Source of the DNA: an uncultured Sphingomonadaceae bacterium
GTDB taxonomy: Bacteria; Pseudomonadota; Alphaproteobacteria; Sphingomonadales; Sphingomonadaceae
Length of the DNA stretch: 64,000 nt
Direction of reading: 5' to 3'
Assembly: GCA_947501325.1 (NCBI GenBank)
Contig: CANMVC010000001.1
Span: 1,178,001-1,242,000 of the forward strand
Below the pieces are notes generated by a model. It searched no databases and was not told the origin of the DNA. It saw nothing but the letters and a program-made list of their open reading frames with translations. The position numbers and the translations under genes are program-made. Below are positions 9,786 to 57,948 of this stretch, in pieces (the first letter of the stretch is position 1; each line of letters opens with the position of its first letter).

Positions 9786-10526
9786 ATGAAGAAATTATTG
9801 TTTGTCATTCCTTTTCTCGCGCTTGCTTCCTGCGACGGATCGATCGCCAGCGCTGTTGGCAATGCCGGAAAAAGCAGCTTCTCTGACGGCACAGCAATTC
9901 CTTCCACGGATACCAATCCCGGCACGTTTGATGGCGTCACTCTTGCGGGACCAGATAATGTCATCTTCACCACTGGATCGGAATTTTCGATCCGGGCCGA
10001 GGGCGACGCGGATTCGCTGGAACAGTTGCGCTATAAGATTACCAACGGGCAGCTGAAAATCGGGCGTGAAAATGGCGGCAGCATGTGGAAAGGTGGCTCC
10101 AGCGCTGCGGTCATCTATGTCAGTGCGCCCACACTGAAAAGTGCCAAACTGGCTGGATCCGGTGATATGCAAGTCGATAAGATGGACAGCGAAAGCGCGG
10201 CCCTGAGTATTGCCGGTTCTGGTAATATCAACATTGAACAATTGGAAACCGCATCGCTGAGCACCAAAATAGCCGGTTCCGGCGATTTGACCATGGCGGG
10301 AACAGCAGACAAGGTCACTATTTCGGTTGCGGGTTCCGGCAATATCAGTGGCAAGCAATTGAAAGCCGATAGCGCGACGATCAAAATAGCCGGTAGCGGT
10401 GATATTGCGCTCTCTTCGGACGGCACCGTAAACACCAAAATTGTCGGATCAGGAGATGTCCGGATTCACGGTAATGCGACATGCGAAACCAAAGCTGCAG
10501 GATCAGGCAAAGTGACCTGCGGGTGA
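9786..10526 (+). CDS. GIN-domain (DUF2807) lipoprotein
   Basis: This 246-residue exported protein has a lipobox LALASC (Cys16), so it is probably anchored in the outer membrane. The rest is a GIN/DUF2807 beta-helical domain of unknown function, once called a putative auto-transporter adhesin head domain. Seven copies of an (A/V)GSG(D/N/K) turn start at 10152, 10212, 10272, 10329, 10389, 10443 and 10497, giving an 18-20-residue rung period as expected for a right-handed beta-helix. The start was set at the ATG behind GGAGGG; the frame is open 13 codons further upstream without support. A second GIN protein lies 1 kb downstream. The function is unknown. Confidence 0.85.
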   Translation: MKKLLFVIPFLALASCDGSIASAVGNAGKSSFSDGTAIPSTDTNPGTFDGVTLAGPDNVIFTTGSEFSIRAEGDADSLEQLRYKITNGQLKIGRENGGSMWKGGSSAAVIYVSAPTLKSAKLAGSGDMQVDKMDSESAALSIAGSGNINIEQLETASLSTKIAGSGDLTMAGTADKVTISVAGSGNISGKQLKADSATIKIAGSGDIALSSDGTVNTKIVGSGDVRIHGNATCETKAAGSGKVTCG

Positions 10527-10602
10527 CAATCCCCCTCTGATTTCGCTTTCCTACAGGATCACCCTTCTGCTAGCCTAGGCTATAGCTTTGGGGGAGATTG
10601 CC

Positions 10603-10896
10603 ATGACAGCGCCAGATAATCATCCGATATATCACATGCTATGGGTGCCTGATCCTGCACGGCCAATTCCCGCAGAAAAAGAGGGTGTGGTCTGTGTGAA
10701 CTTTGGGGCGGAAAGATCATCACCTCGGCGCAAAAAAACATCTGTGATGTGTGTGAACTTTGAAAGCCCACATCGCGGCGACGAGCAGGCTGTGATCTGT
10801 GTGAACTTTGACACGCTCTATCACGGGATAAAAAGGGCTGTGAATTGTGTGAACTTTGGTGTGTCATCGCTGGGCGGGAGGATGTCTCATGCCTAA
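10603..10896 (+). CDS. Small protein with four CVNF repeats, unknown function
   Basis: This 97-residue ORF has a strong SD (GGGGGAG, 6 bp spacer) before the ATG. Its last codons overlap the first 8 bp of the methyltransferase gene, an arrangement seen in real operons. It holds four CVNF motifs at residues 31, 50, 66 and 82, spaced 19, 16 and 16 residues, each followed by G, E or D and separated by charged, unrelated linkers. All four motifs use the same codons (TGT GTG AAC TTT), so the repeat is conserved at the DNA level. No signal peptide or membrane segment is visible. No family is recognised. Alternatively, the DNA repeats are the functional element and the ORF is incidental. Confidence 0.55.
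   Translation: MTAPDNHPIYHMLWVPDPARPIPAEKEGVVCVNFGAERSSPRRKKTSVMCVNFESPHRGDEQAVICVNFDTLYHGIKRAVNCVNFGVSSLGGRMSHA
10685..10858 (+). repeat. Four regularly spaced copies of a ~21-bp repeat (TGTGTGAACTTTG core)
   Basis: The invariant 13-mer TGTGTGAACTTTG starts at 10693, 10750, 10798 and 10846. Copies 2-4 are also preceded by CTGTGATG, CTGTGATC and CTGTGAAT; copy 1 has the diverged GTGTGGTC. Unit starts at 10742, 10790 and 10838 are exactly 48 bp apart, and the first gap is 57 bp; all are multiples of three. The intervening 26-36 bp are unrelated to each other. I noticed no other copy of the 13-mer in the window. Confidence 0.9.
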
Positions 10897-11512
10897 TTTC
10901 TGGGAAAAGCACGCCGTTCCGCGGATCATAAAATTCGCATGCTCCCAACCCGCGGTGATGAAAGATCGCAGCGAAATCGTGCCCCGAGCCCAAGGCGAGG
11001 TTTTGGAACTGGGCTGCGGCGGCGGCATTAATCTGCAATTTTATGATCGGTCCAAAGTCGACAAGCTGACCGGGCTCGATCCTTCGGCCGAATTACTCGA
11101 CTATACGCGCAGCGAAGCCAAAGCGCTTGGGTTTGAGATGGATATATTAGATGGTATTGGCGAGGCTATGCCGTTCGAGAATGATAGCTTCGATACGGTG
11201 CTGACCACCTTTACTCTTTGTTCAGTACAAGATGGTAAACAAGTCCTGAAAGAAATGCGGCGGGTGCTGAAACCGGGCGGAAAAATCCTGTTCCTCGAAC
11301 ATGGACGCGCTCCCGATAAAGGCCCGGAAAAATGGCAGCAGCGGATCGAACCGATGTGGAAACACATTGCCGGCGGTTGCCATTTGCATCGCCCAGTCAC
11401 GAAACTATTCGAGGCCGAGGGGTTCGCGTTAAATCAAGAAGGCGGGCATTATGCCCCGAAGACGCCCAGATGGCTGGGATGGATGGAATTTGGAGAAGCA
11501 CGACCGCTATGA
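10889..11512 (+). CDS. Class I SAM-dependent methyltransferase
   Basis: This 207-residue protein is of the Methyltransf_11/UbiE type. SAM-binding motif I is VLELGCGGGINL (residues about 37-48), followed by the acidic GLDPSAELL of motif II and a post-motif LKPGGKILFLEHG. The C-terminal sequence around WKHIAGGCHLHRPVT resembles phospholipid or small-molecule methyltransferases, but the substrate is not identifiable. The start was set at the ATG with GGGAGG eight bases upstream; it overlaps the CVNF ORF by 8 bp. Its stop overlaps the next gene (ATGA). Translational coupling with both neighbours suggests a shared process. Confidence 0.88.
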   Translation: MPNFWEKHAVPRIIKFACSQPAVMKDRSEIVPRAQGEVLELGCGGGINLQFYDRSKVDKLTGLDPSAELLDYTRSEAKALGFEMDILDGIGEAMPFENDSFDTVLTTFTLCSVQDGKQVLKEMRRVLKPGGKILFLEHGRAPDKGPEKWQQRIEPMWKHIAGGCHLHRPVTKLFEAEGFALNQEGGHYAPKTPRWLGWMEFGEARPL

Positions 11513-12216
11513 AGAATCTTTTTATCATGCTTGCCCTCGGTTTTGCGGCAATGGCCGCACCGGTGCAGGCGGCAGAACGCACCTTTTCCATTTCAAGCTT
11601 TGAAGACGTCCGGATTATCGGCAGCGTTGATGTATTCATCTCCACCGATCGTGGCATATCGGCCAAAGCCGAAGCCGCCAACCGGGAAATATTGGATCGC
11701 GTGTCGTTGCGCAAAAGCGGTAGCCAATTGATCGTATCGGTCAAACCCAAGGCTGGAAATACTACCCGCTTTTCCGCCAATGAGCCGGTAACAATTACGC
11801 TCAGCAGCTATGTGGTCAAATCGATCACCCATTCCGGGTCGGGCAATGTATCGCTCGACAAGCTGGGTGGGCGCGATGCCAAGGCGCGACTCAATGGCTT
11901 TGGCGTGTTGACGATTAACGACGTCGATGCTGATACCCTTAACGTGGCCATGAATGGCGGCGGGCAAATTGTCATGGCGGGCCAGGCGGCAAAGGGGAAG
12001 ATCCAGCTGGTTGGTTCCAGCATATTCGACGGTTCGCAACTGACCTTGGAAACATTGGAACTGGTCCACCGCGGACCGGCCAGCAGCCATATCTTTGTCG
12101 AGAAAGAAGCCAATATTTCTAACAGCGGCACGGGCAGAATCCAGATTGACGGACGGCCCAATTGCAGCGTGAAATCCGGCGGATCAGCAGAGATTATCTG
12201 CGACCCCAAACGATAG
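11509..12216 (+). CDS. Secreted GIN-domain (DUF2807) protein
   Basis: This 235-residue protein has a cleavable signal peptide (MKNLFIMLALGFAAMAAPVQA, then AE) and one GIN/DUF2807 beta-helical domain. It lacks the lipobox of the paralogue at 9786-10526, so it is probably free in the periplasm or exported. It shares with it the ending pattern of a Cys-containing last rung (PNCSVKSGGSAEIICD here, ATCETKAAGSGKVTCG there), which would allow a closing disulfide. The ATG overlaps the methyltransferase stop by 4 bp, which fixes the start even though the frame is open upstream. The function is unknown. Confidence 0.85.
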   Translation: MKNLFIMLALGFAAMAAPVQAAERTFSISSFEDVRIIGSVDVFISTDRGISAKAEAANREILDRVSLRKSGSQLIVSVKPKAGNTTRFSANEPVTITLSSYVVKSITHSGSGNVSLDKLGGRDAKARLNGFGVLTINDVDADTLNVAMNGGGQIVMAGQAAKGKIQLVGSSIFDGSQLTLETLELVHRGPASSHIFVEKEANISNSGTGRIQIDGRPNCSVKSGGSAEIICDPKR

Positions 12217-57872: not shown

Positions 57873-57948
57873 TGGCAGGGGCGCACGGGATCGAACCGTG
57901 GGCCTTCGGTTTTGGAGACCGACGCTCTACCATCTGAGCTACACCCCT
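57873..57948 (-). tRNA. tRNA-Trp (anticodon CCA)
   Basis: This 76-nt cloverleaf is on the minus strand. The acceptor stem is AGGGGTG with CGCCCCT, and the 3' GCCA is encoded. The D arm contains TAGCTCAGATGGTAGAGC, the anticodon loop CTCCAAA has anticodon CCA, and the T arm contains GGTTCGATCC. A tRNA-Trp upstream of secE-nusG is common in bacteria; here it is 2.8 kb upstream, separated by four genes. Confidence 0.96.

Follow-up and report, generated by a model that had tools for sequence, protein, structure and literature searches.

In-frame repeats upstream of a methyltransferase gene in a Sphingomonadaceae genome are one of about 30 clusters of a 20-bp DNA signal with an 11.3-bp spacing period

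The window analysed here, a stretch of 64,000 nucleotides from the genome of an uncultured Sphingomonadaceae bacterium (hereafter G000), contains a small ORF that carries a short repeat four times and runs into the start of a methyltransferase gene. The features of the locus are as follows:

9786 to 10526, plus strand: upstream gene, DUF2807 (head GIN domain; Pfam PF10988, 146.6 bits)
10546 to 10554, plus strand: P motif CTTTCCTAC, -35-like, also found in 10 window orthologues with A sites and in L106
10571 to 10576, plus strand: -10-like TAGCCT of a putative promoter, 18 bp after TTTCCT, at a position that agrees with the TATGATA/GATAAT-like hexamers of P-boxA units
10603 to 10896, plus strand: small ORF of 97 aa, open in the 10 orthologues read that keep the methyltransferase, overlapping the methyltransferase start by 8 nt
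10686 to 10705, plus strand: A site 1, TGTGGTCTGTGTGAACTTTG (PWM 31.4 bits; one mismatch to the consensus)
10743 to 10762, plus strand: A site 2, TGTGATGTGTGTGAACTTTG (PWM 35.6 bits)
10791 to 10810, plus strand: A site 3, TGTGATCTGTGTGAACTTTG (PWM 36.2 bits)
10839 to 10858, plus strand: A site 4, TGTGAATTGTGTGAACTTTG (PWM 34.5 bits)
10889 to 11512, plus strand: class I SAM-dependent methyltransferase, 3' of the array (Pfam Methyltransf_11, 78.5 bits)

Adhesin-like look-alikes at 9786–10526 (DUF2807) and 11509–12216 (judged by eye) flank the ORF/methyltransferase pair. The sole Rfam match in the window is a tRNA at 57876–57948 on the minus strand, with none at the array.

The first-pass annotation of this locus had described four copies of TGTGTGAACTTTG at positions 10693, 10750, 10798 and 10846 of the plus strand, at steps of 57, 48 and 48 bp, each encoding CVNF when read in the ORF 10603–10896, which has an ATG start and an SD-like GGGGGAG on its 5' side. 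This observation was confirmed, and the interpretation attached to it is partly supported by the analysis below. The 7–8 conserved bases that had been noticed before copies 2–4 turned out to belong to a longer site of 20 bp, TGTGA-NN-TGTGTGAACTTTG, of which they form the first half; it was designated site A. No further match to TGTGTGAACTTTG was found in the 64-kb window even when two mismatches were allowed, a setting at which chance gives a mean of 1.04 and four matches were reached in one of 100 shuffles.

The consensus of site A, TGTGAWYTGTGTGAACTTTG, is asymmetric and non-palindromic, consisting of two direct half-sites 9 bp apart, with the 13-mer TGTGTGAACTTTG as its core. Searching the whole of G000 with up to three mismatches returned 63 copies of the 20-mer, compared with none for a reversed control, and the 11-mer core TGTGAACTTTG occurs exactly 61 times, compared with once for its control. 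These sites form about 30 mostly intergenic clusters of one to four sites each, and the repeats of the window are one of these scattered clusters; the layout is not peculiar to one gene. According to a home-made gene caller, 53 of the 61 core matches are intergenic, a figure that includes the four sites of the window because the caller missed the small ORF. A PWM run on 241 kb of G000 returned 60 sites, of which 59 scored more than 27 bits and the remaining one 14.3 bits, so that hardly any gradient of decay is visible in this genome. In 179 non-redundant sites drawn from 263, an A-rich stretch (50–60% A) lies 6–8 bp upstream of the site, with about four G/C-rich bases in between, and the degeneracy is mostly strand-symmetric (W at positions 3 and 6, S in the flank), which fits a predicted reading of base pairs.

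Site A is distributed unevenly among relatives. Among 32 genomes of the genus, the core is present in 11–70 copies in 13 and in 0–3 copies in the remaining 19. Eleven of the 13 A-rich genomes, G000 included, are those nearest to G000 by their methyltransferase (89–100% identity), which was not found in the other two (G046 and G047); in the 19 A-poor genomes its identity is 80–87%. A scan of public sequences for the core matched at least 105 stretches, and 62 of the 80 among the matches listed belong to Sphingomonadaceae, with Sphingorhabdus sp. EL138 and a number of uncultured isolates among them, and the remaining 18 are single matches in unrelated taxa; we estimate the chance expectation for the core in the whole public collection at about 30. 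In the portions of the open-licence literature that could be searched, nothing on site A was found, and the only paper containing the 12-mer was one on a Salmonella plasmid.

To compare loci, 153 clusters were assembled (29 from G000, 30 from G040, 27 from G006, 4 from G018 and 63 from 62 public loci), and these fell into 35 locus groups, some of which fuse neighbouring loci, the largest (21 clusters) being joined by REP-like and HTH paralogy. Of the 27 groups with several members, 24 hold at least two of G000, G040 and G006, and 16 hold all three. When orthologous arrays of equal layout were aligned, leaving out the largest group, identity was 0.944 for the sites (n=62) and 0.733 for the spacers (n=36). 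Two families of REP-like palindromes (CTTCGACAAGCTCAGGACGAACGG and GTGCTCCGCACTTGATGCGGAGC types) lie between or beside A sites in both orientations, at L018, L020, L031, L033, L034, L042, L043, L184, L204 and L205. At L040:3038–3057 an A site is located inside the 3' end of the upstream coding sequence, where it reads VNCVNFG, and this placement is kept in a group of seven clusters (orthologues L195, L229, L057, L072, L092 and L096); we take the coding sequence to be RadA-like, with a presumably CvpA-like gene about 53 bp after the A site.

The distances between neighbouring A sites follow a regular pattern. None of the 114 neighbouring pairs is opposed, all being arranged head to tail, and the spacings range from 44 to 324 bp, with no near-constant spacer length. 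They cluster at 44–48, 56–59, 67–69, 80–81, 91–93, 100–105, 113–116 and 123–125 bp and onward. The best period is 11.3 bp (bootstrap 11.2–11.45), with R=0.80 over the 74 of 85 non-redundant spacings that are below 130 bp; none of 1000 jittered sets exceeded 0.39, and R falls to 0.42 at a period of 10.5 and to 0.22 at 3.0. With near-equal spacings counted once per orthologous group, R was 0.68 (n=50), a value reached in 0 of 2000 null sets. A few long spacers (132, 154, 167 and 173) are off phase. Steps in multiples of three, which the first-pass annotation had emphasized, are thus a property of the window and not of the other loci, the 85 non-redundant spacings being distributed 40/19/26 over remainders 0/1/2.

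Phasing extends to a further element. At many loci the last A site is followed by a divergent site B (TGTGCACTTTGTGAACTTCG in G006, TGTTCACTTTGTCAACTTCG in G000), and the interval from the last A to B is phased (n=19, R=0.70, 3 of 2000 null sets). Weak phasing was detected from the P motif to the first A (R=0.38 for n=51, a value matched in 27 of 2000 null sets) and from P to all A sites (n=72, R=0.37, 2 of 2000), and none from P to B (n=10, 1415 of 2000). Moreover, orthologous arrays differ in 11-bp steps (for example, 81 versus 159, or 57,45 versus 57,159), the length differences of orthologous intervals being less sharply phased than the spacings themselves (R=0.40 at 11.3, best 0.48 at 11.1; n=70). 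Studies of lac looping agree with this period, giving in-vivo helical repeats of 11.08 and 11.60 bp per turn, compared with about 10.5 in solution, according to PMC1762422. We interpret the period of the A-A spacings as the helical repeat of DNA in living bacteria. Read in this way, an A array would consist of repeated sequence-specific sites separated by integral numbers of turns, that is, it would have the form of a phased operator.

A recent local expansion of the repeat, one of the explanations offered at first, was not borne out. Sites within a cluster differ by 1.94 mismatches, compared with 1.83 between clusters, and the spacers hold no 11-bp internal repeat, since self-matching has no peak at lag 11 (0.272; other lags 0.237–0.277). 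As sites of the same array are no more alike than others and an 11-bp internal repeat is absent, duplication fails to explain the steps, and recent tandem duplication was rejected on both counts.

The surroundings of the clusters suggest how they relate to transcription. A k-mer scan near A sites, with orthologues included, recovered CTTTCCTAC 51 times against 0.58 expected and TCTTTCTCA 23 times against 0.21 expected. Together with a TATGATA-like hexamer, CTTTCCTAC forms a promoter-like element, P, and the motif occurs 75 times in G000, compared with 16 for the reversed control. It lies upstream of A on the same strand, within 260 bp, in 95 of the 153 clusters (26 of 35 groups, leaving 9 without P), and in none of the 153 was it found downstream or on the opposite strand within that distance. 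Some 38–39 bp past the -35-like element follows GCTCTTTCTCAATTTTGAATAT, which we take to resemble boxA of rrn leaders; boxA is present in 31 of 153 clusters and 13 of 35 groups. P-boxA units were detected in 29 of the 32 genomes of the genus, with 25 in G000 and none in the control. A boxA-like sequence at a fixed place after a putative promoter is therefore found in the genome, and it is absent from the window locus itself. A further common motif, GGCCGAAAATGTCAAA, was seen between boxA and the first A site at L029, L041, L099 and L102.

Gene context was counted for the 86 clusters of G000, G040 and G006, orthologues being counted apart. The downstream gene is antisense in 19 of 22 clusters with P and boxA, and sense in 27 of 36 with P only; among the 28 clusters without P, the upstream gene is co-directional in 22 of the 23 that have one called. 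From these counts and from the side and strand of P, site A points along the likely transcript, and boxA accompanies the untranslated ones, the P-boxA-led RNAs with an antisense gene downstream being probably untranslated as judged by gene order. No Rfam match was obtained in 20 P-boxA loci, which hence contain no rRNA; with an rRNA-leader reading of these units in view, 16S was sought in the genome assembly searched and was not found. A likeness of A to boxC of rrn leaders was considered and dropped. The leaders that carry A arrays include those of the housekeeping genes secG, rpsF and msrB (Pfam), and one precedes what is presumably an fmt-like gene.

At the window locus, the array coincides with a reading frame that is itself conserved. 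The methyltransferase is present in 30 of the 32 genomes of the genus (E ≤ 1e-20), and in 10 of these 30 loci P and one to four A cores lie within 500 bp upstream, both being absent within that distance from the other 20 (G018 and the A-poor genomes). In all 10 genomes with array and methyltransferase, frame 0 of the small ORF is open, preceded by an SD-like motif and overlapping the methyltransferase start by 8 nt; the ORFs measure 46–110 aa, are 1 mod 3 in length, and have 3–11 and 1–4 stops in the other two frames. Two public loci duplicate the ORFs of G020 and G045. An eleventh case, L106 (4300–4800, minus strand), has a methyltransferase reduced to remnants and an ORF that has lost its ATG and acquired in-frame stops; what persists despite the broken genes is P, together with three A sites that are intact and spaced at 47 and 48.

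These orthologues bear on the reading of the repeats as protein, which the first-pass annotation had tied to steps divisible by three and to a frame free of stops in relatives. The former expectation does not hold, since array steps of 47, 48, 65 and 75 occur in relatives, with one to four copies, and the same site is read there as CDxCELW or as VxCVNFG; the latter fails in L106 but stands in 10 of 10 genomes where the methyltransferase is retained behind an array. Each of these has an open frame that runs 8 nt into that gene, so the ORF is probably translated in them. Taken together with L106, the 10 orthologues indicate that translation is kept alongside the methyltransferase, that the peptide is not conserved, and that the DNA sites are kept either way. 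The in-frame, codon-conserved repeats would then arise because two constraints act on one stretch, and CVNF would be a by-product, as the repeats are read in either of two frames.

We consider it most likely, with a probability of about 0.6, that the A arrays serve as operators for a sequence-specific DNA-binding protein whose copies all sit on the same face of the helix. The original suggestions had included selection acting on the DNA itself, at silent positions, for example as a protein-binding array, and this idea is well supported by the recurrence of the site across the genome, the conservation of its loci and the helical phasing of its spacings. In the proposed mechanism, a sequence-specific protein would bind each 20-bp A site, and the bound copies would line up along the same side of the supercoiled double helix, making contact over the spacers; the transcribed leader would thereby be bent or looped, which would set the amount of RNA polymerase that gets through. 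The array of the window would tune the small-ORF/methyltransferase operon; since this array must also remain open as a coupled leader ORF, its reading frame would be the fitting one of the two without stops, and CVNF would be a consequence of the DNA site and the open frame rather than their purpose. Where boxA follows P at once, the arrays would lie in likely untranslated RNAs, mostly aimed at the 3' end of a convergent gene. Several findings count against this reading. As would be expected of an RNA signal, A occupies the sense strand of likely transcripts; the distances from P to A are weakly phased and those from P to B are not phased; the length differences between orthologous intervals are less sharply phased than the spacings; a few long spacers fall off phase; and 9 of 35 locus groups have no P.

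An element acting in the transcript, such as the site of an RNA-binding protein for which boxA-led RNAs are decoys and 5' leaders are targets, would account directly for the same-strand, upstream position of P in 95 of 153 clusters and its absence elsewhere within 260 bp, as well as for the antisense (19/22) and sense (27/36) gene contexts counted with orthologues apart. A-form RNA likewise has about 11 bp per turn. However, single-stranded RNA offers no easy explanation for phasing maintained over 45–160 nt across spacers of unrelated sequence, the degeneracy at several positions is W/S and not R/Y, and the A sites are no more accessible in native than in shuffled sequences (0.413 versus 0.405, p=0.50, 80 sites). 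These points, together with the lack of an Rfam match at the array or in the 20 P-boxA loci, make an RNA-level element unlikely in our judgement, and a known structured RNA was rejected for the missing Rfam match and accessibility signal. A spread of A without benefit to the cell, as a mobile or selfish repeat of REP/MITE-like or CRISPR-like kind, appears less probable still. Copy number does vary strongly between species, REP-like palindromes occupy long spacers in both orientations, and in one group of 21 clusters, 13 are preceded by paralogous HTH genes; yet orthologous loci are conserved (27 of 35 groups with several members, 24 with at least two of G000, G040 and G006), 59 of 60 PWM sites exceed 27 bits with no gradient of decay, phasing and orientation are strict, and copies share little beyond the site and its A-rich/GC-rich upstream flank. 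A mobile element in viruses was dismissed, with a single match on a single viral contig.

The least probable account, which we give very little credence, is that the ORF encodes a repeat protein rich in Cys, either a RiPP-like precursor or a metal binder, in which CVNF is functional. The frame is open and overlaps the methyltransferase start in 10 genomes with both array and methyltransferase, and all four window copies read CVNF, but orthologues have one to four copies read in either frame in ORFs of 46–110 aa, the window ORF has no Pfam or NCBIfam family match, and L106 retains intact sites in a broken ORF. Furthermore, this DNA site is found at some 30 loci, most of them between genes, at steps that are not multiples of three. 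A protein repeat or RiPP was therefore rejected as a general account, the site being mostly intergenic, read in two frames and able to survive a broken ORF.

If a DNA-binding protein occupies the A arrays, one family may be considered as the factor. An HTH protein of 250–264 aa, one copy being a fragment, precedes 13 of the 21 clusters of the largest group, and each of the 11 copies that were read ends in a TGA stop codon that forms part of an A or A-like site. As an example of the family, at L020:3120–3869 (minus strand) and its paralogues CTTTCCTAC lies upstream and the stop codon falls inside an A site. At all nine HTH loci of G000, CTTTCCTAC precedes the protein match by 50–175 bp and shares its strand. 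Close copies (at least 75% identity) are present in all 11 genomes with at least 28 A cores, G018 set aside; G019 has a single truncated copy (73%) with a stop, and A-poor genomes have relatives of at most 57% identity. The HTH region (residues 29–126) matches the phage terminase small-subunit family phrog_4044 (E 5e-12) in 11 of 11 members. Pfam and NCBIfam gave nothing useful, matches among PDB sequences were not meaningful (best E 0.12), and the predicted model is poor (mean pLDDT 52.1). G018 is a counter-example, with 50 core matches (perhaps 25 sites, mostly overlapping pairs among the matches listed) and no HTH match. Location and co-occurrence thus make the HTH protein a tentative candidate for the binder of A, possible but rather doubtful. 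A copies that may have been duplicated together with HTH genes can explain at most 13 of the 153 clusters.

Possible traces of an older form of the site were found in A-poor genomes, where some P-boxA units are followed by a tandem 9-mer, TGTAAAGTT-TGTAAAGTT-C. It is exact in L264 and L277 and present in near forms in L267, L268, L270, L272, L274 and L279; behind the P-boxA of L261, L263, L265, L266, L269 and L273 it was not recognised. G041 has three exact copies. Tandems of the TGTCAACTT type occur in 4 of 149 sampled genomes, from four other genera, behind P and boxA (L290), P alone (two) or variant forms of both (one), and TGTGAACTT-TGTGAACTT-TG was found in four of five stretches examined in G018. 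The G018 sites seen (L217–L219, L259 and L271) are single and lie inside a longer common block, GGCGGAAA...GCGGTTCCTTGGTGTGAACTTTGTGAA, rather than in arrays. Since tandem 9-mers occur behind P/boxA in A-poor genomes, site A seems to derive from an older tandem site and to be an expanded version particular to one clade, a suggestion based on few sequences.

Loss of A sites could be followed in G019, which is near to G000 (methyltransferase 96%) yet has 10 A sites and two P-boxA units. Queries with 16 neighbour genes located 15 orthologous loci, all of which have A in G000, and in the 420–520 bp examined beside each gene an intact A site was found at one of the 15 (L320). PWM remnants were detected at three others: TCAGAATTGTGTGAACTCCG (14.5 bits) behind a recognisable boxA, CGTGATTTACGTGAACTTCGG (12.1 bits), and a third of 4.5 bits behind an intact P and boxA. 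Two further remnants were judged by eye, and at nine of the 15 loci no remnant was found within the 420–520 bp. The simplest reading of these sequences would be relaxed selection on the whole module in G019, and the nine remnant-free loci may have lost A by deletion.

A broader proposal, which we regard as speculative and unlikely to be right in full, would unite these elements in a dedicated system comprising the promoter class P, boxA-led untranslated RNAs, helix-set arrays of tandem 9-mers and a domesticated, terminase-related HTH family. Close to gene ends and leaders, the protein would assemble with transcribed DNA into nucleoprotein rings or filaments that block, loop or insulate transcription, and single TGTNAANTT-tandem sites, ancestral in the family, would have expanded to about 30 arrays in one clade. 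That such a system of P, boxA-led RNAs, A arrays and an HTH family has not been described before is a claim we make with equally little confidence.

If the operator reading is true, the arrays would provide a natural, replicated record of the helical phase of DNA in vivo, in which dozens of independent spacers, drawn from several species, have converged on multiples of about 11.3 bp, and helical phasing would become readable from genomes, beyond results obtained with reporter plasmids. It would also mean that a common environmental family harbours an unrecognised regulatory network that spans about 30 loci, among them antisense boxA-led RNAs and housekeeping leaders. A caution for annotation follows: what looks like a peptide repeat kept in frame can be a side effect of DNA sites.

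Among known systems, the A arrays are best filed as a variant of phased operator arrays, with a putative protein. The operator pair of the araI-araO2 loop is helically phased, as the A sites appear to be. Like lac O1–O3, which according to PMC1762422 require integral in-vivo turns of about 11.1–11.6 bp for their action, the A sites would be sequence-specific sites near a promoter; unlike the lac and ara loops, A has about 30 loci, with up to four head-to-tail sites in a presumed transcribed region. The A-linked boxA differs from rRNA-type boxA leaders in lying very close to the presumed start and in often being followed by A or B sites. Like REP/BIME elements, A sites are repeats scattered between genes and here and there interspersed with REP-like palindromes, but they are non-palindromic, phased and stay at orthologous loci. 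The arrangement of short conserved repeats and unique spacers behind a leader recalls CRISPR arrays, from which the A arrays differ in their spacers of 24–304 bp, mostly in 11-bp steps, in their many small clusters and in the divergence of orthologous spacers (0.733). Finally, unlike a phage terminase small subunit, the HTH protein belongs to a chromosomal multicopy family, its likeness lying in the HTH region.
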